In this document: positions 15,888-54,018 of the stretch, piece after piece
How positions within the stretch are numbered: the first letter of the stretch is position 1
How the letters are laid out: every line of letters begins with the position of its first letter
NCBI RefSeq assembly: GCF_017875955.1
Contig: NZ_JAGINK010000001.1
Location: forward strand, 2,882,501-2,946,500
DNA: 64,000 nucleotides
Direction: 5' to 3'
Origin: Pseudomonas sp. BP8
GTDB taxonomy: Bacteria; Pseudomonadota; Gammaproteobacteria; Pseudomonadales; Pseudomonadaceae
Notes under the pieces: generated by a model
Seen by the model: the letters and a program-made list of their open reading frames with translations, nothing else
Told to the model about the DNA's origin: nothing
The model's database searches: none
Program-made: the position numbers and the translations under genes

Positions 15888-16017
15888 GTCCGCACTCCTC
15901 GAGTGAAACCTCAAAGTAGCTGGCGCTGAGTGAACTATCCAGAGTATTGAGTAATATCCCGGAACTGCACACCTCAGCGACCGTTGATCAGACGAACGCA
16001 GGCCGATTACTGCGCTG

Positions 16018-18231
16018 TCAGAAGTCCACCGTAGCCGACAACTCATACGTCCGCGGTGCACCCAGCCCCAGCGTCTGGGTCAGAGGTACTCCCCAATAGT
16101 CCTTGTCGGTCAGGTTGGAAATGTTGGCGCGTAACGTCACCGGTTTACTGGCGACGTGCGTGGTCATCCGCGCACCGACGTCGAAGATGGTGTAACCAGG
16201 AATCGACAGGCTGTTGTCGGCACTGATGTACTGCTTGGACTGGGAGGTGACATTACCGGTCAGCGTCACACCGTTCAGTTGCGGAACATCCCACTCCATG
16301 CCCAGCTTGCCCTGCAGCTTGGGGTAGGCGGTGGCGATCTTGCCGTCGTTGTCGCCGCTTTCGGTCTTGGTCAGCTCGGGTTTGACGTAGGCCACGCCAC
16401 CCATCAGGCGTACATCCGGCAGCGGCGCGCCGAAGAAGCTCCATTCCACGCCCCGGTTGCGTTGCTCACCGCCAAATGAAAAGACATTGGTGACCGGGTC
16501 GGTGTAACTGCTCGGCCGCTTGATTTCATAGAGCGCCAGGGTGTGACTGAAGGTACCCAGGTCGAGCTTCAGGCCGATTTCCTTCTGCTTGGATTTGTAC
16601 GGGGCAAACACTTCGCCGAAGTTGGCTGCGGTAATCGGCGCCGAGACGCCCTTGCTCAGGCCTTCGATGTAGTTGGCGTACACCGAGAGCTGGTCGGTCA
16701 GCCGGAACAGAATGGCGCCGGCGGGGGTAGTGGCGTGGGTATCGTAGCCGGGTTTGTTGCGTGCGCCGGTACTGACGTTGTAGGTGTCGGTGACCACCTC
16801 TTGCCGACGTACACCGAGGGTCAACTGCAGGCGCTCGTCGAGCACCGACAAGGTGTCGGCGATGCCGTAGCTTTTCAGGTCGCTTTCACTATGGGCGATC
16901 TGTGGCCAGGCCTCGGAGACCTTCGGGCCCCAGGAGGGGTGGTAGATGTTGGTCGTCCAGTTGGAGCCTGTTGCCCGACGGCCGAAGTCCTTTTGCGTGT
17001 CGCTGTACTGAGTCGCGTTGACCGTCCATTGATGGCCCACGCCAAAGGTATCGAAATGGCCCCGCAACCCCACTTCGGCGGAGGTCTTGTGAATCTGCAT
17101 CTGCAACTGGCCCATCGCGGTGGTGAAATCGCCAGCGTTGTTGTTCACCGTGGCCGTCAGCGCGCCGCTGTATTGATAGTCGGTCTTGCTGGTACCCACC
17201 GCGCCGTAGGCCAGCAACTGGTCGGTCAGCTCATAATCGGCACGCAAGATGACGCCCTTGTCCTTTGTTTCGACATAGGCCCAGTCAGGGTTGAGCAGGG
17301 TGTCGGACTTGGGCGGGCTGGGCACGGCCACGCCACTTGCCAGGCCCATACCACGGTTTTGCCCGCGGATATGGTCGTCGGTGTCGAACAGGTCTAGCGA
17401 AACCCGCGCACGTTCGCCGCGCCAGTCAAGCGCCAGTGAGGACAGCACATTGCGCTGGCGCTGGTCGTCGATAGCGGTGTCACCGTCGCGGTACATGCCG
17501 TTGAAGCGCACGCCGAACTGGTTGCCTTCGCCGAAGCGCCGGCCGACGTCGACATGCCCGCCAAACTGGGCGTCGGAGGAATAGGTGCCCGTCAGGCGGG
17601 TCAGCGGCGTATCACCGGCGCGCTTGGGGATGAGGTTGACGATACCGCCCACCGAGCCACCGGGCGGCATGCCGTTGAGCAGTGCCGACGGGCCTTTGAG
17701 TACTTCGATTCGCTCGTACATCTCGGGTGAGGCGCGGTAGTAGGGCGCCATCCCGAACAGGCCATCGACGGTCATGTCGCTAACGCTGGTCTGGAAGCCG
17801 CGGATCGAGTAGTTCTCGCTGTAGGTGCCCTTCAGGCCATTGCTGAATACGGCGGGGTCGGTGGCGGCGATGACACTGCTGATGTCCTTCGCTTGCAGGT
17901 CTTGAATGTAGGTATCGGTGTAGCTGACGGTGCTGAACGGGGTCTCCATGAAGTCCTTGTTGCCCAGCAGCCCAACGCGGCCGCCGGTCGCGACCTGGCC
18001 GCCGGCATAAACCGGTGGCAGAGGGTCGGTAACGGGAGCTTGAGCATCGATCAGGGTTGCCGCCAGCTCTGCCGCCGCGGGTTGTGCGTCCTCGGCGCGC
18101 GCATGGGATGACGACAGCGCGCAGCCAGCCAACGCCAGGCCGATAAGCACGGCGTGGGCCAGCGGATGCAGTTGCAGCGAAGGCAGTGGGAAAGCAGCGG
18201 ACGGTTGAATGAAGTTGGGACGGTTGGACAC
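16018..18231 (-). CDS. TonB-dependent siderophore receptor
   Basis: A 737-residue outer-membrane receptor. A GTG start at 18231 has GGAG eight bases upstream and gives a leader with a hydrophobic core near residues 27-40. The plug domain (about 85-200) has the usual blocks: S-I-R-G-F-Q-T-S, then E-R-I-E-V-L-K-G-P-S-A-L-L-N-G-M-P-P-G-G. A long beta-barrel ends in the terminal phenylalanine (T-V-D-F). There is no N-terminal signalling domain, so control through a surface-signalling sigma factor is unlikely. It heads the locus with a FatBCDE-type importer and two ABC half-transporters, all minus strand. The siderophore cannot be named; the plug is closest in style to FhuE/ferrichrome-type receptors. 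Confidence 0.92.
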   Translation of the reverse strand: MSNRPNFIQPSAAFPLPSLQLHPLAHAVLIGLALAGCALSSSHARAEDAQPAAAELAATLIDAQAPVTDPLPPVYAGGQVATGGRVGLLGNKDFMETPFSTVSYTDTYIQDLQAKDISSVIAATDPAVFSNGLKGTYSENYSIRGFQTSVSDMTVDGLFGMAPYYRASPEMYERIEVLKGPSALLNGMPPGGSVGGIVNLIPKRAGDTPLTRLTGTYSSDAQFGGHVDVGRRFGEGNQFGVRFNGMYRDGDTAIDDQRQRNVLSSLALDWRGERARVSLDLFDTDDHIRGQNRGMGLASGVAVPSPPKSDTLLNPDWAYVETKDKGVILRADYELTDQLLAYGAVGTSKTDYQYSGALTATVNNNAGDFTTAMGQLQMQIHKTSAEVGLRGHFDTFGVGHQWTVNATQYSDTQKDFGRRATGSNWTTNIYHPSWGPKVSEAWPQIAHSESDLKSYGIADTLSVLDERLQLTLGVRRQEVVTDTYNVSTGARNKPGYDTHATTPAGAILFRLTDQLSVYANYIEGLSKGVSAPITAANFGEVFAPYKSKQKEIGLKLDLGTFSHTLALYEIKRPSSYTDPVTNVFSFGGEQRNRGVEWSFFGAPLPDVRLMGGVAYVKPELTKTESGDNDGKIATAYPKLQGKLGMEWDVPQLNGVTLTGNVTSQSKQYISADNSLSIPGYTIFDVGARMTTHVASKPVTLRANISNLTDKDYWGVPLTQTLGLGAPRTYELSATVDF

Positions 18232-41388: not shown

Positions 41389-41709
41389 ATGCGCCAACGA
41401 AGCTCTTATCCGAAACCGTTCAAAGCCCAAGTCGTTCAGGAATGCCTGCAACCTGGGGCCACTGTCTCAAGTGTCGCCATCAGCCACGGCATCAATGCCA
41501 ACGTCATCCGAAAATGGATGCCGCTCTATCGAGACCAGCCCGCAGCGACTTCACTACCGGCATTCGTCCCGCTAAAAGCCGTACCTAAACGGCCAGCCGA
41601 AGCGTCAGTGATCATCGAGTTGCCCATGGCCGGCCAAGTGATCACAGTGAAATGGCCAACCTCAGATCCCGAGGGCTGCGCGCAATTTATCCGGGCTGTC
41701 GCTCAATGA
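41389..41709 (+). CDS. tnpA: IS66 accessory protein TnpA
   Basis: A 106-residue helix-turn-helix protein of the IS66 OrfA/TnpA type: F-K-A-Q-V-V-Q-E-C-L, then V-S-S-V-A-I-S-H-G-I-N-A-N-V-I-R-K-W. It is needed for transposition in characterised IS66 elements, probably for DNA binding. It overlaps tnpB by four bases (ATGA). Confidence 0.9.
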   Translation: MRQRSSYPKPFKAQVVQECLQPGATVSSVAISHGINANVIRKWMPLYRDQPAATSLPAFVPLKAVPKRPAEASVIIELPMAGQVITVKWPTSDPEGCAQFIRAVAQ

Positions 41710-42041
41710 TCCGCATCGATGCAATCTGGCTGGCCACCGAGCCGATGGATATGCGCGCCGGCACCGAAACCGCATTAGCCCGGGTGATCGCAGTGTTCGG
41801 TGCGGCGAAGCCGCACTGCGCTTATCTGTTCGCCAATCGTCGGGCTAACCGGATGAAAGTACTGGTGCACGATGGCGTGGGCGTCTGGCTTGCGGCGCGG
41901 CGACTGAACCAAGGCAAGTTTCACTGGCCCGGAATTCGCCACGGCTGCGAGGTCGAACTCGACAGCGAACAACTCCAGGCGTTGGTACTGGGTTTGCCGT
42001 GGCAGCGAGTCGGTACGGGTGGCGTGATCAGCATGCTGTAA
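41706..42041 (+). CDS. tnpB: IS66 accessory protein TnpB
   Basis: A 111-residue IS66 OrfB protein. I-W-L-A-T-E-P-M-D-M-R-A-G-T-E near the start, F-A-N-R-R-A-N-R-M-K-V-L-V-H-D in the middle and the F-H-W-P block are family hallmarks. Starts within the tnpA stop (ATGA), implying coupled translation. Confidence 0.92.
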   Translation: MIRIDAIWLATEPMDMRAGTETALARVIAVFGAAKPHCAYLFANRRANRMKVLVHDGVGVWLAARRLNQGKFHWPGIRHGCEVELDSEQLQALVLGLPWQRVGTGGVISML

Positions 42042-42104
42042 TCGCCGGCCATTTGACCGGTCTGCTTGTCGTCGTTTCGGGCCTGCTCTGGCACAGTCGG
42101 CGGC

Positions 42105-43625
42105 ATGACTTTCTCGCCCAACCTCGACCAGATGACCCCGGAACAGCTCCGTGCCTTGGCGGCACAGGCGCTGCAGTTGCAGTCCAAAGTCGAGGCGATG
42201 AGCAGGAAGATCCAGAACGATGAAATCCTCATCGAACAGTTCAAGTTCGAAATCGCCCTGCTCAAGCGCCACAAGTTTGCTAAGCGCAGCGAGCAAATCA
42301 GCCCGGCGCAAGGCAGCTTGCTGGATGACCTGCTCGACACAGACCTTGAAGCTATCGAAGCAGAACTGAAACAGCTCCTTCCAGCTTCGCCACAAGCCGA
42401 GCCACGGCAATCTCCGAAACGTGCGCCATTGCCGCCGCAGTTTCCACGCACAGTGATTCGTCACGAACCCGAAGAGACTCAGTGCGCCTGTGGCTGCCAA
42501 CTTCAGCGCATCGGCGAAGACGTCAGCGAGAAGCTGGATTACACGCCGGGCGTGTTCACTGTCGAGCAACATGTGCGTGGCAAATGGGCCTGCCGTCAGT
42601 GCGAGATACTGATGCAGGCGCCGGTGCCGGCGCAGGTTATCGACACAGGCTTGTTGGCCCACGTGATGATGGCGAAGTTTGCCGACCACTTGCCGCTGTA
42701 CCGGTAGGAGAAAATCTTTGGCCGCGCGGGGCTGGCAATCGCTCGTTCGACCCTTGCCCAGTGGGTCGGACAAACCGGTGTGCGGCTCCAGCCGCTGGTC
42801 GATGCACTGCGTGAAGCCGTTCTGAACCAGGGCGTGATTCACGCTGATGAAACGCCGGTGCAAATGCTTGCGCCGGGCGAGAAGAAAACCCACCGAGCCT
42901 ATGTCTGGGCCTACAGCACGACGCCGTTTTCGGCGCTCAAGGCGGTGGTCTACGACTTCAGCCCAAGCCGTGCTGGCGAACACGCGCGTAACTTCCTGGG
43001 CGACTGGAACGGCAAGCTCGTTTGCGATGACTTCGCTGGCTATAAAGCTGGTTTTGAGCAAGGCATCACTGAGATCGGCTGCATGGCCCACGCCCGTCGC
43101 AAGTTTTTCGATCTGCATGTGGCGAACAAAAGTCAGCTAGCCGAACAGGCGTTGCACTCGATCAGCGGCCTGTACGAGGTGGAACGCCAGGCGCGGGACA
43201 TGAGTGATGAAGATCGCTGGCGAATACGTCAGGAAATGGCGGTACCGATCAGTAAAAAATTGCATGACTGGATGTTGGCCCAGCGCGACCTGGTGCCCAA
43301 CGGATCAGCCACGGCCAAAGCCCTCGACTACAGCCTGAAACGCTGGGTAGCGCTGACGCGCTACCTGGACGATGGTGCTGTGCCCATCGACAACAACCAA
43401 GTTGAAAACCAGATACGGCCATGGGCACTCGGGCGCTCGAACTGGTTATTTGCCGGGTCGTTGCGCAGCGGCAAACGAGCAGCTGCAATCATGAGCCTGA
43501 TCCAATCGGCGCGCATGAATGGGCATGATCCGTATGCCTATCTCAAAGATGTACTGACGCGGTTGCCGACGCAACGGGCCAGTGAGATCGGGCAACTGTT
43601 ACCGCATCAGTGGGTGTCTGCCTAA
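42105..43625 (+). pseudogene. tnpC: IS66 transposase TnpC with internal amber stop
   Basis: One frame of 507 codons from ATG 42105 to TAA 43623-43625 encodes a full IS66 transposase except for TAG at 42705-42707, where family members have L-Y-R-Q-E-K-I-F. The N-terminal half has the leucine-rich region and C-A-C-G / C-R-Q-C zinc-binding cysteines; the C-terminal half has the catalytic acids (H-A-D-E-T-P, C-D-D-F-A-G-Y, N-Q-V-E-N). A single C-to-T change in CAG would make the stop. Unless suppressed, no active transposase is made. Confidence 0.92.
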
Positions 43626-43656
43626 CTTACGCAAGGTGAGTTGGGCGGACGCTTAC

Positions 43657-43664
43657 ACCCAATC
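43657..43664. repeat. Right copy of IS66 target duplication
   Basis: ACCCAATC, identical to 41281-41288. Confidence 0.9.
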
Positions 43665-43940
43665 GGTAAATTCACCTTGGGAACGTGACCAGAACAAAGT
43701 CGAGCCACACCGCGCGCAGAATTCGCGAAGCACCGATTCTGAAGAAGAATATCTGGTGATGTGTCCGGCCCCGTTGAGTATCCGTAGTGCGCTACGGGGC
43801 ACGCTTCCATATGAAGCGAATGCTGCCCCGTGACCTTTGCGGCATTGAGCGCAGTGACAATGACTCACTGCTTTTGGCGTCGTCAGAAGCTCGTAACGGA
43901 TTGCTGTGCAAAGGCAGCTTCCCTGGTAAACCTCTGTCAT
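43657..43940 (-). pseudogene. GFA-family gene, N-terminal fragment split by IS66
   Basis: The first 94 codons of a GFA-family (glutathione-dependent formaldehyde-activating enzyme type) protein. Zinc-ligand cysteines are visible: G-S-C-L-C near residue 9, H-C-H-C-A-Q-C-R-K near 28-34, and F-C-A-R-C-G-S near 75. The frame runs into the IS66 right end after T-D-W-V and stops within it. Most family members are small carbon-sulphur-type or orphan enzymes. The missing C-terminus lies at 41163-41288. Confidence 0.9.
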
Positions 43941-44565: not shown

Positions 44566-44621
44566 CACCGTCCGCGAACGCGACAGGCAATCCTACCTAC
44601 CTTTGGACTGGGGGCTCTGTG

Positions 44622-45851
44622 TCAGAATGATGTGAAAAGGTAGCTTGCGATCAACCGCGTCTCATCGATGTCGCGCAGATCATCGCTGCGAAATGTTGCA
44701 TTGCGAAGCCTTATAGAAAATCCTTTTAGCTTCCCTTGAAACGCATAGTTCACTTCCACGTCACGCTCCCATTCTTTGTCGGCACCAACCTTCTTCAATC
44801 CGTCTCCATGAATGTAGGCCGTGAAGAAACTGAGTCCCGGAACCCCGAGTGCAGCAAAGTCATAGCCATAGCGAAGCTGCCAGCTACGCTCGCCTGCGCT
44901 CCCGAAGTCGTGATACTGCACATAGTTGGGAAGGTAGGGGTTATTGATGTAGGCAAACCCGGTCGATCCCTGCATGACCTGGTACGTCGCCATTACGCTG
45001 TGGCCATTATTCATTGAGTAGTTGAACGAGGCCGCATAGGCTCGGTTATCGACATCACCAGCGTTGGCGGCACCGATGTCGCTGCTCGCAAAAGCACGCA
45101 GATCGGTAGTGAGGTTACCGTTTCCTAGTGGCATGCTGTGAACCAAGCCAACATATTGTTGACGATAAACGTCATCCAGCTCTCCATAGAAATAACTGGC
45201 GTTCAGCTGAGGCGTGATTTTATAAGTGGCTCCCCCGAGTCGATAAAAATCACCGATCCCAGTTGCACGATAGCGGCCATCTTTCACGGCGAGGGTGATG
45301 TCCTTCAAGTCCGTAGAGTCTGGGGTAATGGTCTGGTCGAACTGCGCGAGGTTGAGAGTCAATCGATCAATATCTGTCGAGGTGACTTGGAACCCCTGAA
45401 ATGTCTGCGGCGTCAATCTACTATTGTTGTACTGGAGAATAGGGTATTTGGGCAGTGACATGCCGTATCGAATAGTGGTGTCTAATACTTTGGCTTTCAC
45501 GCCGTACCCAGCCTTTGAATACTCGTCTACTGCTTCGCCAGAATCGTTTCTTGGAAGCAGCCCACTACCTGAACGATCAGGGCTAGAGTCCAGCCTATAC
45601 CCTGCAAAGATCAATGCGTCCGCCCCGAAGCCAACCGGGCCTGATGTATAACCAGACTCATAGTTAAGTAAAAACCCTTGAGCCCACTCTTCTCTTTTCG
45701 ATACCCCGGTGCCTTCTCGGAAGTCTCCATTGTAATAAAGGTTTCGGGCCTCCAGTCGGATTTTGCTGCCCTCAATAAAACCTTCCGCAAAAGTGTTGCT
45801 GGTCGCGAGAATCAAAGGAATGACAATTGAGCATGAGAGAGTACGATTCAT
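44622..45851 (-). CDS. OprD-family outer-membrane porin
   Basis: A 409-residue porin starting M-N-R-T-L-S-C-S-I with a signal peptide ending near T-F-A-E. G-F-I-E-G-S-K-I-R-L-E-A-R-N-L-Y-Y-N is the typical first strand of the family, and the protein ends in an outer-membrane type S-Y-L-F-T-S-F with terminal phenylalanine. OprD porins admit amino acids or small organic acids. It is last in the catabolic island; the carrier gene ends 83 bases upstream on the same strand. A role in passing the substrate (proposed 2-pyrone-4,6-dicarboxylate or a related tricarboxylate) is inferred. Confidence 0.9.
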   Translation of the reverse strand: MNRTLSCSIVIPLILATSNTFAEGFIEGSKIRLEARNLYYNGDFREGTGVSKREEWAQGFLLNYESGYTSGPVGFGADALIFAGYRLDSSPDRSGSGLLPRNDSGEAVDEYSKAGYGVKAKVLDTTIRYGMSLPKYPILQYNNSRLTPQTFQGFQVTSTDIDRLTLNLAQFDQTITPDSTDLKDITLAVKDGRYRATGIGDFYRLGGATYKITPQLNASYFYGELDDVYRQQYVGLVHSMPLGNGNLTTDLRAFASSDIGAANAGDVDNRAYAASFNYSMNNGHSVMATYQVMQGSTGFAYINNPYLPNYVQYHDFGSAGERSWQLRYGYDFAALGVPGLSFFTAYIHGDGLKKVGADKEWERDVEVNYAFQGKLKGFSIRLRNATFRSDDLRDIDETRLIASYLFTSF

Positions 45852-45934
45852 TTTTATTATTGTCCTGACGCAAAGGGCCGCTGCTCGGCCTAAGGCCGAA
45901 CAGGGGCATATTTTTATTGTATTAGTTTGAGGCC

Positions 45935-47248
45935 TTATTTCTTGATGCTGAGTTCTTGTGCAAGCTTTTCGCGGTCCAGTTCTTTCTCCCATGCGGAGAC
46001 GACCAGCGCTGCCACACCGTTGCCAACCAGGTTGGTCATGGCAAGGCCAGTCCCCATGAAACGGTGGATACCAAGGATAAGTACCATGCCTGCTACAGGA
46101 ACAACCGGCACGACCATGAGTGTGCTGGTCAGCATCACGAACGCAGCGCCCGATACGCCACTGGCGCCTTTCGATGTCAGCATTGCCACCACCACCAGCG
46201 TCAATTGCTGGCTGAGGGACAGCTCGATATTCAGGGCTTGAGCAATGAAAAGGACTGCCATCGTCAGGTATATATTGGTGCCATCCAGGTTGAACGAGTA
46301 CCCCGTCGGGATGACCAGTCCTACGACTGGTTTGGAACAGCCCAAACGCTCCATTTTTTCCATGATTTGAGGCAGTACCACTTCTGAGGAACTGGTGCCG
46401 AGCACCACCAGTAGCTCTTCCTTGATGTAAGCGATGAATCGCAGAATGCTAAATCCGCAAACCTTGGCCACTGCACCGAGAATGACGATTACGAAAAGCG
46501 CGCACAGGATGTAGAAACTGCCGACCAGCTTCATGAGAGGCAGCAAGGCGCCAACCCCATAGGTGCCTACGGTGAAAGCAATCGCACCAAACGCACCTAC
46601 GGCAGAGAGCTTGGCGATGATGTGGACGATCCGGAAGAAAACCCCTGACAAACCTTCGATGATGTCGTAGACCGGCTTTCCCTTTGCACCCATCGCCGAG
46701 AGTGCGCATCCAAAAAGGACAGACACCAGCAGGATGCAGAGCACATTCCCTTCGGCGAAAGCTTGGACAAATGTTGAGGGGATAATCCCCATCAGAAACT
46801 CAACCATGTGCATGTGTTGAGCCTTTTCGGCGAACCCAGTTACAGCTGAGGCGTCCAGAGAGTTCACATCTACGTTGAAGCCTCCGCCGGGGTTGAAAAG
46901 GTGACCCCCAATCAAGCCGATGATGAGGGACACCGTGGAGATGACTTCAAAGTAGAGCAGGGCCTTGCCACCAACGCGACCCACTTTCTTCAGATCTCGC
47001 ATCCCAGCGATACCGCTTACCACCGTGCAGAAAACGACTGGGCCGATAATCATCTTGATCAGCTTGATGAAGGCATCGCCCAGAGGTTTTAGGTCAGCGG
47101 CGAATGTAGGCCAGAAGTGACCGACCACGACGCCAGCAATGATTCCGAGTAGAACTTGGAAGTACATCGCTTTGTAGAAGGGCGGTTTGGTTTTCACCAC
47201 GGAGGGTGATGTAGCTTCGGCCTGAGCAGACGCAGGGCTGGAGTTCAT
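45935..47248 (-). CDS. DctA-type dicarboxylate:cation symporter
   Basis: A 437-residue inner-membrane carrier of the DAACS family. [15 protein letters not shown], and the G-A-S-G-V-S-G-A helical-hairpin motif are DctA signatures. The ATG at 47248 is used; a GTG four codons upstream is less likely. DctA normally imports C4-dicarboxylates. Here it replaces the GalT-type MFS permease of the P. putida gallate operon, so it may carry the pyrone or another polycarboxylate. That is inference. Confidence 0.9.
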
Positions 47249-47299
47249 AGCTATTCTCACTGAAATCTTATTGTTGGAAGAATGGTCGAGCGTTGTTGC

Positions 47300-48163
47300 T
47301 TAGCGTCCGTATAGCTTCAGGGGATTTTCTACCAACAGCTTCTGGCGCCTCTCTGGATCCGTACAGAATCTGAACATCAGATCCACCAATCCGCCGTCGT
47401 TTGGCATGTCCTTAGAGATGTTTGGATGTGGCCAGTCAGTACCCCACAGAACTCTATTCGGAGCGATCTCAATAAGCCGCTCTGCAAAAGGTATCGCATC
47501 CTCGAACGGTCGACGACCTGCGGAGACCCGTTCTGCACCGCAGACCTTCACCCAGGCCAATGGGTTTTCCATCAGTTGTTGGAGCGCGTGGAATGGCTTC
47601 TGGTCGATGCCATCCTGGGCTTTGACTCGGCCCATGTGGTCGATGATGAAAGGTACCGGGATCCGCGCAAGCCGATCTGCGTAGGTGAGGATGTCTTGGG
47701 CGTCCAGGTGCAGAACCACGTGCCATCCAAGATCTGCAAGACGATCTACAGTGCTGTCGAAAACATCGAGATCGGGGGCTCCGCCCAGGTGAGCCACGAA
47801 GTTGAAACGAACCCCACGAACACCGCCGGCATCAAGGGCTGCCAGTTGTTCATCAGATTCGGTGCCATTCACGATGGCTACACCCCGATACCGCCCCTCA
47901 CTGCGAGCAATTGTGTCGAGCATGGCGCGATTGTCGGTGCCGTGGCAGCTGGCCTGGACGATTACGCCACGGCTGAAACCGAGGTGATCGTGCAAAGACC
48001 GCAAAGTTTCGAAAGGGGCATCTGGAGGCGTATAGCTGCGGTCTTCTGCGTAAGGGAAAACCGAGGCGGGCCCAAACACATGGCAATGTGCGTCCCATGC
48101 GCCTTCTGGCAGCTTTTGCAGGGGGATGGTGGGGTGTGGATCTGGAGCGAGGCAAGATTTCAT
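47300..48163 (-). CDS. LigI-like 2-pyrone-4,6-dicarboxylate hydrolase
   Basis: A 287-residue amidohydrolase-fold protein of the COG3618 group. D-A-H-C-H-V-F-G-P (about residues 24-32), F-P-Y-A-E-D-R-S-Y-T-P-P-D-A, I-I-D-H-M-G-R and the late V-L-W-G-T-D-W-P-H-P-N block match the LigI (2-pyrone-4,6-dicarboxylate lactonase) pattern, including the late aspartate that acts in the reaction. LigI opens the pyrone to 4-oxalomesaconate, exactly the substrate of GalD/GalB encoded next door. AGGA precedes the ATG. Related 4-sulfomuconolactone or galactarolactone enzymes cannot be excluded. Confidence 0.85.
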   Translation of the reverse strand: MKSCLAPDPHPTIPLQKLPEGAWDAHCHVFGPASVFPYAEDRSYTPPDAPFETLRSLHDHLGFSRGVIVQASCHGTDNRAMLDTIARSEGRYRGVAIVNGTESDEQLAALDAGGVRGVRFNFVAHLGGAPDLDVFDSTVDRLADLGWHVVLHLDAQDILTYADRLARIPVPFIIDHMGRVKAQDGIDQKPFHALQQLMENPLAWVKVCGAERVSAGRRPFEDAIPFAERLIEIAPNRVLWGTDWPHPNISKDMPNDGGLVDLMFRFCTDPERRQKLLVENPLKLYGR

Positions 48164-48279
48164 CTCGTATCCTGGTTAGTCGTTGTTAGTGGAATCGATA
48201 GCCCGATGGTGGGCGTCTTCCAGCCTCTCAACAACTCGACCCTCGCTCTAGCAGTTATGCTGTTTTTGCATGCGCCAGG

Positions 48280-48291
48280 CTAAGGTATGCA
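48280..48291 (-). promoter_or_regulatory. TGCATACCTTAG motif upstream of the LigI-like gene
   Basis: On the minus strand TGCATACCTTAG lies about 120 bases before the LigI-like start, overlapping the end of the LysR pseudogene. The near-identical TGCATACCTAG lies upstream of galB (52735-52745). It may be a shared regulator half-site. Confidence 0.4.
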
Positions 48292-49165
48292 AACCTCACG
48301 CACGAGCGCCATCGTTTGTTCTGCGAGACGGGAGAGCGGTCTCTGCTCGAATGTGGCTAGGAATAGATGGGTCTGAATGGTGGGATCGACAATCTGGGCG
48401 GCTTTGAGACCTTCCAATTGGCCGTTGCTGTTAACCAGCGCGGAACGAAACAGCACTCCATAGCCCATGTCGAGATCAATCAGCTCCAGCAGGGACGGGA
48501 TGCTGTCTATCTCCAGAGATATGTCGAGCTGAACCTCGTGGCGTCTAGCTTCAGTCTCGATCAAGCGCCGAATTGAAATGAGGCTCACTCGGGGTAATGA
48601 GCGGAAACTTGCCCAAATCCTTCATCGGGACTGTGGTTGGGAGATCGGAATGCTGGCTCCCGATGAGCATCAATGGCTCAGAATGTAGGTGCTCGTATTG
48701 CAGCTGCGCATTCTGTCCAGGGTTGAAAAGCAGCGCAAAATCCAGCCGCCCCAAGAGCAGCCACTCGCGCACCGAGTGAGTAAGACCTTCTTTGATGCCT
48801 AGGATGCAATTAGGGAAGCGCTTGCGAAATGCCGTTACCAACGCCACGGTATCGCGCCGAGAAATGCTGGGCGGGAGGCCAATGACGACTTTGCCGGACA
48901 GGGTATCACGCTGTTCGCGTAGGTCTTCTCGCGCTACCTGAACCTGTCTGAGAATGCCCTTACCGTGTTCGAAGAGTCGCTGGCCGGAACCGGTTAGTAA
49001 TACCCCACGTCCATTACGCATCAGTAGATGCTCCTGGAGTTCGACCTCAAGCTGGCGAACCTGTCGACTTACGACAGACTGCGAGATGTTTAGGACAGCT
49101 GCGGCTTTGGTGAAACTGCCAAATTCTGCCACCCGTACAAAGCATTCCAGTTGTTTGAGATCCAT
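48280..49165 (-). pseudogene. LysR-family regulator with a frameshift
   Basis: The N-terminal part (M-D-L-K-Q-L-E-C-F, helix-turn-helix S-F-T-K-A-A-A-V-L-N-I-S-Q-S-V-V-S-R) reads on to L-I-T-P-S-E-P-H-F and stops at 48551. A second frame then gives S-I-R-R-L-I-E-T-E-A-R and continues to TAG at 48280. Removing one T from the TTT in CATTTCAAT (about 48570) would rejoin P-H-S-I-R-R-L, as in intact family members, giving roughly 295 residues. A one-base insertion, real or a sequencing slip, is the likely cause. It lies inside the catabolic island on the same strand, between the dehydrogenase and LigI-like genes, like GalR-type regulators. Confidence 0.82.
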
Positions 49166-49189
49166 GGGGCTCAACTCAAAGACCTGATC

Positions 49190-50113
49190 TTACCCTTTTT
49201 CGAGGGCTTCACTTTGCTGGGCGGCTGAGCTGCCATAGAGGGTGTCGAACAATGCACTCCAACTGAAGGGTTCCAGCGTCAAATATTCGATGTCCGCTTC
49301 AGCCATTGAGTCTATAAGCCCTCGCTGTGTGCTCACTATCGCTCTACTCATGTAAGCGGCAACACCTACATCGCTGACTGTCTTTGCAACCTCTTTCATC
49401 TCCTCTGATCGGCGTAGCCCGTGCTCTGCCACACGACTGATCAGGTAGTGAGGGAGATCACTGTTCCATCCCATACTTGGAAAGCTTTTGTGCAGCGATG
49501 TGAGAACTTCATCCTCCGCATCGTACTGGCGAGCAGCACTTAAGCATTCCGTCGTAAGAGCCTCTAAGCCCTTAATCATGATGCTTCGACACATCTTGAT
49601 TGCTGACGCCACGCCAATGGTGTTGGCGACCACGCGGGTGTTCATGCCAAGAGCGTTCAGTTGAGAGCAGACCTCATCGGACCGTGTGCCGCCCAGCAGT
49701 ATGGGTGTGAGGAGTCGTTGCGGAGGAACGGGCGCCACGACGGCGGCATCGACGTAATCAATTCCGTATTGGGTCATAACGGCTTCTGCCAACTGCTTGG
49801 TTGCAGGTGCAATGGAGTTTATATCTATGAACAACTGCCCCTTCAGCATCAGTGGAGCCGCATCCTGTGCGACCCTCAGGGCACTGTCGGCGGTCACGGC
49901 AGAAATGACCCACTCCCCGCGCGATAGGGCAAGGGCAGCGCTATCGCAGACGGTCACGCCGCAGCGTTGCCCTTTGTCTAGTAGGGCTGGTCGTTTTTTC
50001 GGGTCATCGTGCAATCGATCATAGGTGAAAACTTCTATGCCAGCGGCAGCAAGGTCTTGCCCTAGGATGCCACCAGCTTCACCGAAGCCGATCAAGGTAA
50101 GGGTTTTGATCAT
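49190..50113 (-). CDS. DUF1932-type beta-hydroxyacid dehydrogenase
   Basis: A 307-residue two-domain protein. The N-terminal Rossmann loop is G-F-G-E-A-G-G, with D-I-N-S-I-A-P as the 6-phosphogluconate-dehydrogenase-type substrate loop. The C-terminal helical domain (I-G-V-A-S-A-I-K-M-C-R-S-I-M-I-K-G) has the catalytic Lys and the DUF1932 pattern. Its ATG overlaps the galD stop by four bases, so it is translationally coupled to the gallate-type genes. No step in the known gal pathway needs such an enzyme; it might oxidise or reduce a pathway intermediate or side product. Function open. Confidence 0.83.
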   Translation of the reverse strand: MIKTLTLIGFGEAGGILGQDLAAAGIEVFTYDRLHDDPKKRPALLDKGQRCGVTVCDSAALALSRGEWVISAVTADSALRVAQDAAPLMLKGQLFIDINSIAPATKQLAEAVMTQYGIDYVDAAVVAPVPPQRLLTPILLGGTRSDEVCSQLNALGMNTRVVANTIGVASAIKMCRSIMIKGLEALTTECLSAARQYDAEDEVLTSLHKSFPSMGWNSDLPHYLISRVAEHGLRRSEEMKEVAKTVSDVGVAAYMSRAIVSTQRGLIDSMAEADIEYLTLEPFSWSALFDTLYGSSAAQQSEALEKG

Positions 50114-51198
50114 TTTGTAGTTACCGATGGCCAGATTGAGGCAGGAATTAGCACATGTCCGTCAAAGAGCAATCGAGCCGTACGCAGTAGTCCACAGCCT
50201 GCGATCTTGTCTTCTCGCATGCGAAGCTCAACGGAGAATTCTCCAGTTGGATGTTCTACGGATATTCTCACGTGATCATCGGGCTCGACGCTAGCGACGC
50301 TTGAAGCAACCGTGCCCTCAAGGCGACAAGCTGTTGCGACACTGACCGCGCCGAATACACCGATGGATGTGTGGCAGCGGTGGGGAATGAATGTGCGGCT
50401 GCTGATCGCGCCGCCATCACGCGCAGCCGCGATCAAAGACATCTTGGGTACGGTTCGGCTGCTAACGTCACCGAGATTCATCAGCTTCCCGGCTTGTAGT
50501 CTGATGGACTCAAGCTTCGATTTAAGCTCGGTATCAGCGTCTAGTTCCTCAGGGCTTTCGTATCCTGTGCGGCCGAGATCGGCTGCCCTTACCAGGACTA
50601 CGGGCATGCCGTTATCAATGCATGTCACCTCTATACCATCGACTTGGTCAACTGCGTTTCCTGTCGGAAGCAGAGCCCCACAGCTGGAACCGGCGATGTC
50701 CTGGAATTCGACGATCAGAGGAGCACTGGTACCCGGAACACCATCGATTCTAGCCTCTCCGTCATATTCAACTCGACCGTCAACCGTCTGGACTTGAGCG
50801 ATTGCGGTTTGGCCCGTATTAGCCATGAAGATGCGTACGGGCGTGATCGAATCATGTGCTGTTATCAAGCCCCGCTCGATGGCGAACGGGCCTACACCTG
50901 CCAGGATATTTCCGCAGTTTTGGCCGTAATCTACCTTGGCTTCTTCAACTGAAACCTGGGCGAACAAGTAGTCCACATCAGCGTCGGGACGATTAGAAGG
51001 GCTGATAATCGCCACCTTGCTAGTGAGCGAGTTCGCGCCACCGATGCCATCAATCTGGCGTGAATCAGGAGAGCCCATGGCAGCAAGTAATACCCGGTCT
51101 CGCGCCTCACCTTCGGGGGGCAACTCGCTAGCGAGGAAAAACGCGCCTTTAGAGGTGCCGCCGCGAACCAACAGACAAGGAATTCGAGTCTGGCTCAT
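50110..51198 (-). CDS. galD: 4-oxalomesaconate tautomerase
   Basis: A 362-residue PrpF-family protein, the length of P. putida GalD as remembered. M-S-Q-T-R-I-P-C-L-L-V-R-G-G-T-S-K-G-A is the typical opening; N-C-G-N-I and later G-C-G-L-L blocks supply the two active-site cysteines. GalD shifts 4-oxalomesaconate from keto to enol form so that GalB can hydrate it. The start at 51198 follows the galC stop; an ATG four codons earlier is an alternative. Confidence 0.9.
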   Translation of the reverse strand: MSQTRIPCLLVRGGTSKGAFFLASELPPEGEARDRVLLAAMGSPDSRQIDGIGGANSLTSKVAIISPSNRPDADVDYLFAQVSVEEAKVDYGQNCGNILAGVGPFAIERGLITAHDSITPVRIFMANTGQTAIAQVQTVDGRVEYDGEARIDGVPGTSAPLIVEFQDIAGSSCGALLPTGNAVDQVDGIEVTCIDNGMPVVLVRAADLGRTGYESPEELDADTELKSKLESIRLQAGKLMNLGDVSSRTVPKMSLIAAARDGGAISSRTFIPHRCHTSIGVFGAVSVATACRLEGTVASSVASVEPDDHVRISVEHPTGEFSVELRMREDKIAGCGLLRTARLLFDGHVLIPASIWPSVTTK

Positions 51199-51202
51199 GG
51201 CG

Positions 51203-51919
51203 TCACCCATCCAGATCGCTGAGCGAGTCGTAGTAGACCAATCCGCGATCAGCCAGCTTTTGGCGCATGTTGTAAATATCGAGGCCTAATTCACCTGCGG
51301 CGAGACGCAATCGCTTTTGCTCCTCCAGCTCAGCACGTTTGAGGCTGGTATCGACCACTTCCCTAATGTCCTGACGTCTGACGATCACAACACCGTCATC
51401 ATCTGCAACCACTACGTCTCCAGGCTCAACTAACTGGCCAGCGCAGACTATCGGAGTATTCACCGAGCCAATCGTCTCTTTCACCGTTCCTTGGGCATGC
51501 ACGGCACGTGACCAGACCTTGAAACCCATTTCCCTGAGCGTTCGTGTATCCCGTACGCCAGCATCAATCACCAGACCTCTCACTCCCCGAGCTTGTAAGG
51601 AGGTTGCGAGCAGATCACCGAAGTAGCCATCAGTGCATGGGGAGGATGTCCCCACGACCAAGATATCTCCCGGCTGACACTGTTCTACCGCGACGTGAAA
51701 CATCCAGTTGTCGCCGGGGGCAACCAGTGCCGTCACTGCGGAACCACTAATGCCCTGATTCTGTTGAATGGGACGGATCGCGTTATCGAGCAGCCCCTTC
51801 CGGCCTTGGGCCTCATGTACGGTTGCGACGCCGAACTCGTTAAGCGCGTCTATTAGGCCAGCGTCAGCTCGGGAGATATTGCGTATCACAATTCCTGTCT
51901 TTCCAATGAGGCTGCTCAT
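51203..51919 (-). CDS. galC: 4-carboxy-4-hydroxy-2-oxoadipate aldolase
   Basis: A 238-residue RraA/HMG-CHA aldolase family protein. V-A-T-V-H-E-A-Q-G-R-K-G, G-D-N-W-M-F-H-V-A, G-Y-F-G-D-L-L, and V-I-D-A-G-V-R-D carry the divalent-metal and pyruvate-binding residues (notably the D-x-G-x-R-D block). It cleaves CHA to pyruvate and oxaloacetate, the last step of the gallate and protocatechuate-4,5 routes. Its ATG overlaps the galB stop by four bases. Confidence 0.92.
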   Translation of the reverse strand: MSSLIGKTGIVIRNISRADAGLIDALNEFGVATVHEAQGRKGLLDNAIRPIQQNQGISGSAVTALVAPGDNWMFHVAVEQCQPGDILVVGTSSPCTDGYFGDLLATSLQARGVRGLVIDAGVRDTRTLREMGFKVWSRAVHAQGTVKETIGSVNTPIVCAGQLVEPGDVVVADDDGVVIVRRQDIREVVDTSLKRAELEEQKRLRLAAGELGLDIYNMRQKLADRGLVYYDSLSDLDG

Positions 51920-52653
51920 CCCAGGTTCTCCGTAACGCGAGGGAAGAGGCTTTCATAGCCCTCTGCGTAGACAATGTTTCGCGAAGAGGCGATACCGACG
52001 TTGCGCTTGGCTTGCACACCGCGTTGAAGAGCTACGCGAGTGTAGTACTCCCAGAGGTGTTCCTGACCTGCCATGCACTGAATCGCCGCGTACTTCTTGT
52101 CCCACACCTCAGTGATGTCCAGCAGCACGTCAGGTCTCCACTCACACTGCTCAGGCTGGTGTGGCTCAAAGCTATAGACAGGGGGAGCGCCGACGATCTT
52201 TTCGCCAGGCTTGTAGCCTTCAGCCTGAGCGATGATGCGGGCTTCCTGTGTGAGGTTCATTGCGAGTGGGTGGTCGTAGTTGTACGGGTCCTTAATTGAA
52301 TGGCTCAGTACAAACTCCGGCTGAACTCGTCGAAAGACGTCGGCGAGGCGAAACAGGGTTTCCTTGTCTGCGCGCATCGGATAGTCACCAATATCGAAAA
52401 ACTCGACGCTGGCGCCCAGGATGTCAGCGGCAGCTTGAGCTTCCTCACGACGAGCCGCTTTCACCTTCTCTTCAGTCATCTCACCCTTACGCCACAATTT
52501 GGCAGACTCACCGCGTTCGCCGTAGGACAGGCAAACGATGTGTACGGCATATCCCTGTTGGGCATGAAGGGCGATGGCGCCACCTGCGCGCCAAACAAAA
52601 TCGGCGGAATGTGCACTGACGATCAAGGCTGTTTTTTGTTGTGAGGTGTTCAT
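51916..52653 (-). CDS. galB: 4-oxalomesaconate hydratase
   Basis: A 245-residue PIG-L-like zinc-hydrolase-fold protein. S-A-H-S-A-D-F-V-W-R-A-G-G near residue 13 replaces the A-H-P-D-D-E motif of other PIG-L proteins, which is how GalB is remembered to look. S-Y-N-Y-D-H-P-type sequence (P-Y-N-Y-D-H-P-L) gives another metal His. It hydrates 4-oxalomesaconate to CHA. First gene of the galB-galC-galD-dehydrogenase run, each overlapping the next by a few bases; divergent from a two-domain LysR-type regulator. Confidence 0.9.
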   Translation of the reverse strand: MNTSQQKTALIVSAHSADFVWRAGGAIALHAQQGYAVHIVCLSYGERGESAKLWRKGEMTEEKVKAARREEAQAAADILGASVEFFDIGDYPMRADKETLFRLADVFRRVQPEFVLSHSIKDPYNYDHPLAMNLTQEARIIAQAEGYKPGEKIVGAPPVYSFEPHQPEQCEWRPDVLLDITEVWDKKYAAIQCMAGQEHLWEYYTRVALQRGVQAKRNVGIASSRNIVYAEGYESLFPRVTENLG

Positions 52654-52734
52654 TTGAGGCTCATCTCATCATGGGGATCGATGGGACATACCGTCGCATA
52701 CGTGTACCTTAAGCAGATAATGCCTTCCTCCTCT

Positions 52735-52745
52735 CTAGGTATGCA
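52735..52745 (-). promoter_or_regulatory. TGCATACCTAG motif upstream of galB
   Basis: Lies 82 bases upstream of the galB start in the 156-base divergent region shared with the LysR-type gene. Shares TGCATACCT with 48280-48291 upstream of the LigI-like gene. Confidence 0.45.
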
Positions 52746-52809
52746 TTTTACTTATTGGGATGGCCGCGTCATTCTACGAGATCCCGACGAGCGATGAGAG
52801 TGCGAACTC

Positions 52810-54018
52810 ATGACACCCCCTGTTTCTCCTAGCCTGATGCAGATCCGAGCATTCTTGTACGTGGTTGAGACCGGGAGCATCTCTAAAGCAGCTGCGGCCT
52901 TGTTCCGCGCTCAATCTGCTGTTACTCGATCAATCATTTCGCTTGAGTCGTCTTTGGGCGTACCTATATTTGAGCGCAATGCGAGTGGAATGCGACTGAC
53001 TCGGCAAGGCGCTTCAATTCTCCCTCGGGCCAAACGCGCGGTGGCCGAACTGCTTTATGTCCCGCAGGTTCTCGGTAGGACGAAGGAAGGGTCGGGGGAA
53101 CCGCTTTATTTGTTCCAGAATCGGCGTCTTGAGATATTTGCTCGGCTTTGCGAAACCCAAAACATGCAAACCGCAGCCATGACGCTCGGTATTTCTCAAC
53201 CGGCAATAAGCGCTGCGATAAAGATTTTAGAGCAAGGCTGTGGCGTTAGTCTTTTCGAGCGCACGCCTCAAGGTCTGCTGCCAACCAGGATGGCGTCCGT
53301 AGTTCTGCTTCACGCCCGACGTGCGTTGAATGAACTACGTCATTTGGACGCAGATATCACTTTCTTGGATGGCATTGTGAGAGGCACTGTGCATGTTGGT
53401 GCACTGCCATTGGGGCGGACTCATATTCTTCCACAAGCTATTGTGCGCCTCACCGGTCGCCATCCCGGACTTTCCATTGTGACGAACGAGAGCCCGTTTG
53501 ATCTATTGGCTAGCGAATTACGGTCAGGCGATGTGGATTTCGTCTTAGGTGCTTTACGCTCATCTTCCTATGGTTCTGACTTACGAGGCGAAGAACTGAT
53601 GCGGGAAAATCTGGTGATCTTGATGCGTCGTGGTCACCCATGGGCAGGCCGGCCAGTTACGCCGGAAATGCTCGCTTCTGCAAAATGGGTACTCCCAAGA
53701 TCTGGCTCACCGGCACGTGATCTGCTTTCAGCATTTTTTGTACACATAGGTATAAGCTCGCCGCCGCCCGTGGTGGAAACAGGTGACCTTGCGATACTTC
53801 GGGGAGTGCTGTTGAGCTCTGACATGCTCGCAGCCGTTTCTGCCCATCAACTTCAGTATGAGATCAACAGCAAAGATCTCGTTCCTGTGCCTTTGGTTTT
53901 GAAACACACATCAAGGCCCATAGGTCTTACTTATCGGGCTGCCGCACTCCAATCCCCGGCGGCGCACGCCCTCATGGAAATGATCCGGCAAGTGGTTTCA
54001 GAAATGAATGCAGGATAG
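52810..54018 (+). CDS. LysR-type regulator with two helix-turn-helix domains
   Basis: A 402-residue protein, about 100 residues longer than usual. One LysR DNA-binding domain is at about 10-70 (M-Q-I-R-A-F-L-Y-V-V; I-S-K-A-A-A-A-L-F-R-A-Q-S-A-V-T). A second, different one is at about 105-165 (R-R-L-E-I-F-A-R-L-C; M-Q-T-A-A-M-T-L-G-I-S-Q-P-A-I-S-A). The effector domain starts near V-H-V-G-A-L-P-L-G-R and ends normally. Divergent from galB, so it is the likely controller of the island. Regulators of this long type are known near aromatic-acid genes; whether both domains bind DNA is open. Confidence 0.88.
   Translation: MTPPVSPSLMQIRAFLYVVETGSISKAAAALFRAQSAVTRSIISLESSLGVPIFERNASGMRLTRQGASILPRAKRAVAELLYVPQVLGRTKEGSGEPLYLFQNRRLEIFARLCETQNMQTAAMTLGISQPAISAAIKILEQGCGVSLFERTPQGLLPTRMASVVLLHARRALNELRHLDADITFLDGIVRGTVHVGALPLGRTHILPQAIVRLTGRHPGLSIVTNESPFDLLASELRSGDVDFVLGALRSSSYGSDLRGEELMRENLVILMRRGHPWAGRPVTPEMLASAKWVLPRSGSPARDLLSAFFVHIGISSPPPVVETGDLAILRGVLLSSDMLAAVSAHQLQYEINSKDLVPVPLVLKHTSRPIGLTYRAAALQSPAAHALMEMIRQVVSEMNAG

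Follow-up and report, generated by a model that had tools for sequence, protein, structure and literature searches.

A putative self-contained pathway for an extracellular cyclic dicarboxylate in Pseudomonas sp. BP8: a LigI-like hydrolase joined to galBCD, a DctA-type carrier and a porin

Described pathways through 4-oxalomesaconate and the BP8 island

2-Pyrone-4,6-dicarboxylate (PDC) is a lignin breakdown product and a target monomer in the upcycling of lignin and polyethylene terephthalate (PET). Protocatechuate 4,5-cleavage operons such as lig of SYK-6 and pmd of Comamonas contain LigAB and LigC together with a LigI-type hydrolase and the tautomerase, hydratase and aldolase that act on 4-oxalomesaconate (OMA) and its products; the example among the loci sampled here is Azospirillum L018. 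The island described below lies in a window of 64,000 nucleotides from Pseudomonas sp. BP8 (NZ_JAGINK010000001.1, positions 2,882,501 to 2,946,500), whose genome is a single contig of 6.0 Mb; it shares the hydrolase, tautomerase, hydratase and aldolase with these operons, but is without LigAB and LigC and has a dedicated dicarboxylate carrier and a porin. From 52653 to 44622 on the minus strand the order is galB, galC, galD, a DUF1932 dehydrogenase gene, a broken LysR gene, the LigI-like hydrolase gene, a DctA carrier gene and an OprD porin gene. We put at roughly 0.7 the probability that the island works as a catabolic unit of its own on a cyclic dicarboxylate from outside the cell, PDC being the likeliest substrate.

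The gal cluster of Pseudomonas putida KT2440 (excerpts of PMC9942251) shares galB, galC, galD, a divergent GalR-type regulator and a GalR-like box with the island; however, the island is without galA and the MFS gene galT, and has instead the hydrolase, DctA, an OpdH-like porin, LysR and DUF1932. The syringate pathway of Pseudomonas sp. NGC7 resembles the island in that its lower part of GalD, GalB, GalC and GalR is fed by an upper part other than GalA; unlike the island, it is presented in passages of PMC12314914 as having no LigI, with OMA made by ring cleavage and ester hydrolysis, and the strain as having no PDC hydrolase gene and being unable to convert PDC. Excerpts of PMC10510227 on PDC in Comamonas deal with a hydrolase deletion and the carrier gene pmdK. 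No PDC importer was named in the open-licence literature searched by titles, abstract beginnings and passages of three papers, and phrases for PDC uptake gave no match concerning the pyrone in titles and abstract beginnings.

In the proposed route import of PDC would fall to an OpdH-like porin and a specialised DctA carrier, the LigI-like enzyme would hydrolyse its lactone to OMA, and GalD, GalB and GalC would convert OMA to pyruvate and oxaloacetate; OMA would probably also induce galBCD through the divergent GalR-type regulator. Import of a pyrone and entry at OMA had been suggested by the first-pass annotation, and are well supported by co-occurrence in 398 genomes, by the carrier tree and by the GalR box; the pyrone itself is the part that we infer. 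The genome comparison lends good support to a lower pathway that stands alone and has an uptake system of its own.

Co-occurrence with GalD and GalA in Pseudomonas genomes

A sample of 398 genomes of the same genus, drawn from a larger group, holds hydrolase relatives of 80-100% identity in 12 genomes, the window genome included; 16 further genomes have relatives of 39-50% identity (E <= 1e-60). Near the 12 hydrolases lie DctA (12), LysR (12), OprD (9), galBCD (7), DUF1932 (6) and a GalR-type regulator beside galB (6), and no GalA, LigA or LigB match came up among the probes of the window or in the stretches retrieved around the other 11 islands. Close GalD (E <= 1e-120, 68% or more identity) is present in 39 of the 398 genomes and full-length GalA (a frame of at least 423 aa with a LigA domain) in 34; any LigA match occurs in 47, and in the remaining 13 the frame is short or the match weak and partial. 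GalD is present in each of the 12 island genomes. All 34 GalA genomes have close GalD, and the other five GalD genomes are exactly the GalA-less island genomes, a five-fold match among 364 genomes without GalA that has p 2e-11 if genomes are independent, which they are not. A LigA-domain protein is found in seven of the island genomes and is absent from G235, G095, G310, G252 and G210; genomes without one account for 5/7 of the islands with galBCD and 0/5 of those without (Fisher p 0.028), and each of the five islands without galBCD sits in a genome with GalA and GalD elsewhere. Close LigC was not found, the matches being partial and of 25-42% identity. Because GalD, GalA and the island co-occur in this pattern, the substrate of GalD is very probably supplied by the hydrolase, and in five genomes it very probably comes from neither GalA nor LigAB. 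A broken GalD in genomes carrying the module only, once considered from stops reported in the matches, was rejected; re-aligned L159-L162 show none, or one at the second aligned position.

It is highly improbable that the genes are chance neighbours, an independent unit of hydrolase, carrier and porin having come to lie beside a duplicated galBCD with no joint function. Five of the 12 genomes do have LysR, hydrolase and DctA without galBCD, with OprD found in two of the five; however, the halves are joined in the other seven, with a reciprocal pattern of GalA, and Brenneria roseae joins LysR, galD, galB, hydrolase, dctA and an RraA-type aldolase.

LigB and PrpF searches of the BP8 genome found a second gal cluster some 257 kb away from the island (3193159-3199722), in which galD, galC and galB are accompanied by a two-HTH regulator gene in divergent orientation, by galA (420 aa) and by an MFS carrier gene; the island copies are 89% (GalB), 72% (GalC), 70% (GalD) and 59% (regulator) identical to their counterparts. 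The GalA fusion is the sole LigA-domain protein of the genome, and apart from it the LigB family is matched only by a frame of 264 aa at 4976784; LigAB and LigC of the protocatechuate 4,5-cleavage pathway were not found in this genome, the best LigC-like match having 35% identity over part of the query. The first-pass statement that there is no ring-cleaving dioxygenase holds for the island, where none is adjacent, but an organism without a dioxygenase is ruled out by the GalA-type protein; the genome search which that annotation had proposed places this enzyme away from the island, in its own gal cluster and beside its own regulator. A third GalD-like protein (G000:C1:3042452-3043513, L022), about 48% identical, lies near weak matches to a two-HTH regulator and an OprD-type porin and perhaps belongs to another tricarboxylate pathway.

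The distribution of GalA bears on the idea of repair or recapture, in which the hydrolase would rescue PDC cyclised inside the cell during gallate or methylgallate breakdown, while carrier and porin would retrieve leaked PDC. GalA occurs in 7/12 island genomes and in 27/386 others, and the ring-cleavage product of methylgallate cyclises to PDC according to passages of PMC12314914; set against this, five of the 12 island genomes have no LigA-domain protein, 27 of the 34 GalA genomes have no island, and a dedicated carrier and porin would be superfluous. Such a role is considered improbable.

The hydrolase, its carrier and related loci

Among solved structures, LigI (4d8l) is clearly the top match of the hydrolase, far above 2ffi (E 2e-32) and 4mup (E 1e-30), and the overall similarity to LigI is moderate. 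Fourteen LigI positions were compared, including R130 and Y156, which we take to be pocket residues; 12 are identical in the island enzyme, among them the presumed catalytic Asp and three His, and R130 and Y156 are both His (the H/H type). The earlier LigI-like label stands as a statement of closest solved relative, qualified at these two positions and as to the pyrone. Related loci were sampled as the best 80 of at least 599, many of them from Bradyrhizobium, and searched with 26 probes, some taken from the window and the others from the gallate cluster or from three reference loci. The H/H type is present in 68 of the 80, and 58 of these have no R/Y type; seven of the 58 carry LigB and LigC as well, a setting in which PDC would be expected as an intermediate. 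The notion that the H/H change excludes PDC was set aside, and since H/H-only loci hold LigB and LigC the change is no strong argument against PDC. PDC is the most probable substrate, and its hydrolysis by the island enzyme is likely. Two other identities were rejected: 4-sulfomuconolactone hydrolase (290.7 bits, curated equivalog cut-off 500), and galactarolactone isomerase, which we take 4mup to be, given the E value of only 1e-30.

The same arrangement could serve another substrate, with the H/H hydrolase acting on a PDC relative (e.g., a reduced pyrone or other tricarboxylate lactone) and the DUF1932 enzyme oxidising the opened product to OMA ahead of GalD. The changes at R130 and Y156, a porin nearest to a tricarboxylate porin, and the presence of DUF1932 in 6/7 galBCD islands and in 17/63 dioxygenase-free related loci speak for this; however, one of the galBCD islands and all five that lack galBCD have no DUF1932, and in the seven loci with LigB and LigC, where PDC is expected, H/H is the sole hydrolase type. 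Another substrate is rather unlikely. The first-pass annotation assigned the DUF1932 dehydrogenase no step, and nothing found here gave one; its best solved relatives are uncharacterised, and a literature search on DUF1932 turned up only unrelated work. A role as LigC replacement found no support, as both proteins are present in L018, L035, L045, L046, L078 and L086.

A ring-cleaving dioxygenase lies near 17 of the 80 hydrolases; LigB matches down to 28% identity were scored as dioxygenases, which works against the proposed import of PDC, and matches to TTT receptors, a common protein type, were scored as carriers down to 27-30%, which favours it. DctA or a TTT receptor is near 1/17 dioxygenase-linked hydrolases vs 35/63 of those without dioxygenase (p 2e-4), and in the 56 loci with at least 8 kb on both sides the figures are 0/10 and 32/46. 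Four Burkholderiaceae loci (L023, L025, L026, L027) combine LysR, hydrolase, DctA and porin, with galBCD not adjacent; L024 gave no DctA match.

The carrier passes the curated DctA subfamily cut-off. A tree of 47 DctA-type sequences, 22 beside LigI-like hydrolases and 25 unlinked, with some long branches flagged including that of Brenneria, groups the linked carriers into two clades: the first contains Pseudomonas-like bacteria, Paraburkholderia/Caballeronia and Brenneria (16 rows, support 100/99), the second Bradyrhizobium and two others (6 rows, support 100/99); all 25 sampled unlinked carriers fall outside both. Other DctA paralogs in the BP8 genome are at most 54% identical to the island carrier, and linked Paraburkholderia carriers 66-68%. 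Because it belongs to a separate clade, the island DctA may differ in substrate from ordinary DctA; transport would presumably be inward. For the island porin the nearest solved relative is OpdH, a porin for cis-aconitate. The frame of the island porin, listed from 45992, starts too early; the signal peptide opens at an internal Met near 45854, and therefore no overlap with dctA is necessary.

The evidence is evenly poised on a wider proposal, that scavenging of extracellular PDC by a LigI-type lactonase with a dedicated carrier (DctA clade or TTT receptor), with or without galBCD, is widespread and so far undescribed, spanning Pseudomonas-like bacteria, Burkholderiaceae, Brenneria and Bradyrhizobium. 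If true, bacteria that had not themselves opened the ring would be harvesting PDC as a common product of lignin decay. Should the proposed import hold, the island would supply candidates for a PDC importer and for a sensor of PDC. Cross-feeding on the pyrone would then be predicted in soil, a microbe living on a compound that others leave, and the OMA node would have two genetic entrances within one genus, through gallate ring cleavage or through hydrolysis of an imported pyrone.

In Bradyrhizobium (L044, L049, L050, L051, L055, L059, L060, L071) a recurrent cluster holds a TTT receptor, two tandem LigI-type hydrolases, DctA, GalB, GalC and DUF1932, and the flanks that were retrieved gave no match to a dioxygenase; one of the tandem hydrolases is altered at LigI positions 126 and 183, the other is H/H. 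In L049 an NMT1-like protein, which we take to resemble dihydroxyphthalate decarboxylase, lies between GalC and DUF1932. This cluster is possibly a related but different pathway. The L016 cluster consists of an H/H hydrolase, DUF1932, a LigK-type aldolase, TTT receptors and LigAB, beside plasmid partition genes.

Regulation, integrity and surroundings of the island

A site before galB is one mismatch from the published GalR site, which is taken from excerpts of PMC12314914; each of the five further islands that were scanned (L131, L132, L133, L136, L137; L134 was left out) has such a site too, and the gallate cluster of the same genome has an exact match. The 64 kb contain two one-mismatch matches, the second at 45846 near the OprD start; a narrower pattern (0.01 expected) was drawn up after the sites had been viewed. 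With the regulator and the predicted site both present, the island is a putative member of the GalR regulon. OMA is the reported effector of GalR (excerpts of PMC9942251), which fits a hydrolase that would produce OMA.

The other LysR gene was described at first pass as a pseudogene, and is one: it is divided into the frames 48551-49174 and 48280-48588, and nine of the ten intact relatives align to the window in two frames meeting at one point, the tenth (L134) giving one long stretch and a match in the second frame. The gene is intact in 10/12 islands and broken in the window genome and in G235 (L131), where the frame ends after 78 codons; in the window lineage GalR may be the sole regulator of the unit.

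Several observations weigh against a functional, dedicated PDC unit. Because LysR is broken in the window genome and in G235, and the DctA match of G235 is interrupted by a stop (TAA), the unit may be decaying in the window lineage. OprD was not found in 3/12 islands, a loose re-search of those three included. The hydrolase has His at two presumed pocket positions of LigI. The window genome has GalA, so the pyrone could arise inside the cell here. Other LigB-family proteins occur in all 12 island genomes, those of G095 and G210 including frames some 300 aa long; L016, a Roseomonas mucosa plasmid locus, combines TTT receptors with LigAB; and the p-values are too strong, given that the genomes are related.

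The unit has the character of a discrete island, because DNA similarity to L131, from the same-genus genome with the most similar hydrolase (98% identical), is confined to block 44621-53984: it amounts to 90% and ends there within the 19.9 kb compared. The GC content is 49-56% inside the block, 54-60% in the flanking few kb and about 60-62% beyond. Open reading frame listing, Pfam and curated models bear out every gene named at first pass on the minus strand (Table 1), and the scores and E values of GalD, GalC, GalB and the hydrolase exclude chance matches; the parts were given correctly, but the divergent two-HTH regulator, which belongs to the unit, had been overlooked. The overlaps of a few bases described within galBCD are likewise found, at 4 bases for galB/galC and 8 for galC/galD, with 4 for galD/DUF1932; the genes are presumably co-expressed.

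Table 1. Positions of the island features within the window
Feature	Position	Strand	Basis
OprD-family outer membrane porin	44622..45854	-	Pfam OprD 452.9 bits; nearest solved relative OpdH 2y0l, E 8e-120
DctA-type carrier, clade found beside LigI-like hydrolases	45935..47260	-	DctA subfamily model 632.9 bits vs 513; tree
LigI-like lactone hydrolase, H/H variant	47300..48163	-	PDB 4d8l E 3e-71; residue comparison
Broken LysR regulator gene, two frames	48280..49174	-	Pfam; intact in 10/12 island genomes
DUF1932 dehydrogenase, 6PGDH-like NAD-binding fold	49190..50113	-	Pfam DUF1932 and NAD_binding_2; PDB 4ezb (uncharacterised) E 4e-48
galD, 4-oxalomesaconate tautomerase	50110..51210	-	NCBIfam 548.8 bits vs 440; 6p3j E 5e-131
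galC, 4-carboxy-4-hydroxy-2-oxoadipate aldolase	51203..51919	-	ligK_PcmE 339.2 bits vs 304.5; 3noj E 3e-113
galB, 4-oxalomesaconate hydratase, PIG-L fold	51916..52653	-	5cgz E 6e-150
GalR-box-like site before galB, ATAAGTAAAATGCAT	52741..52755	-	One mismatch to published site
Divergent GalR-type LysR regulator, 402 aa, two HTH domains	52810..54018	+	Pfam HTH_1 twice and LysR_substrate; 59% identical to gallate-cluster regulator

Beside the island lies a transposase-like block (window 41389-43625), presumably of IS66 type, also present in L019 at 15979-17553; its tnpC-like protein shares 98% identity with one adjoining the gallate cluster. A small frame at 43653-43940 on the minus strand, seen in the open reading frame listing alone, resembles a glutathione-dependent formaldehyde-activating (GFA) type protein and is possibly shortened.

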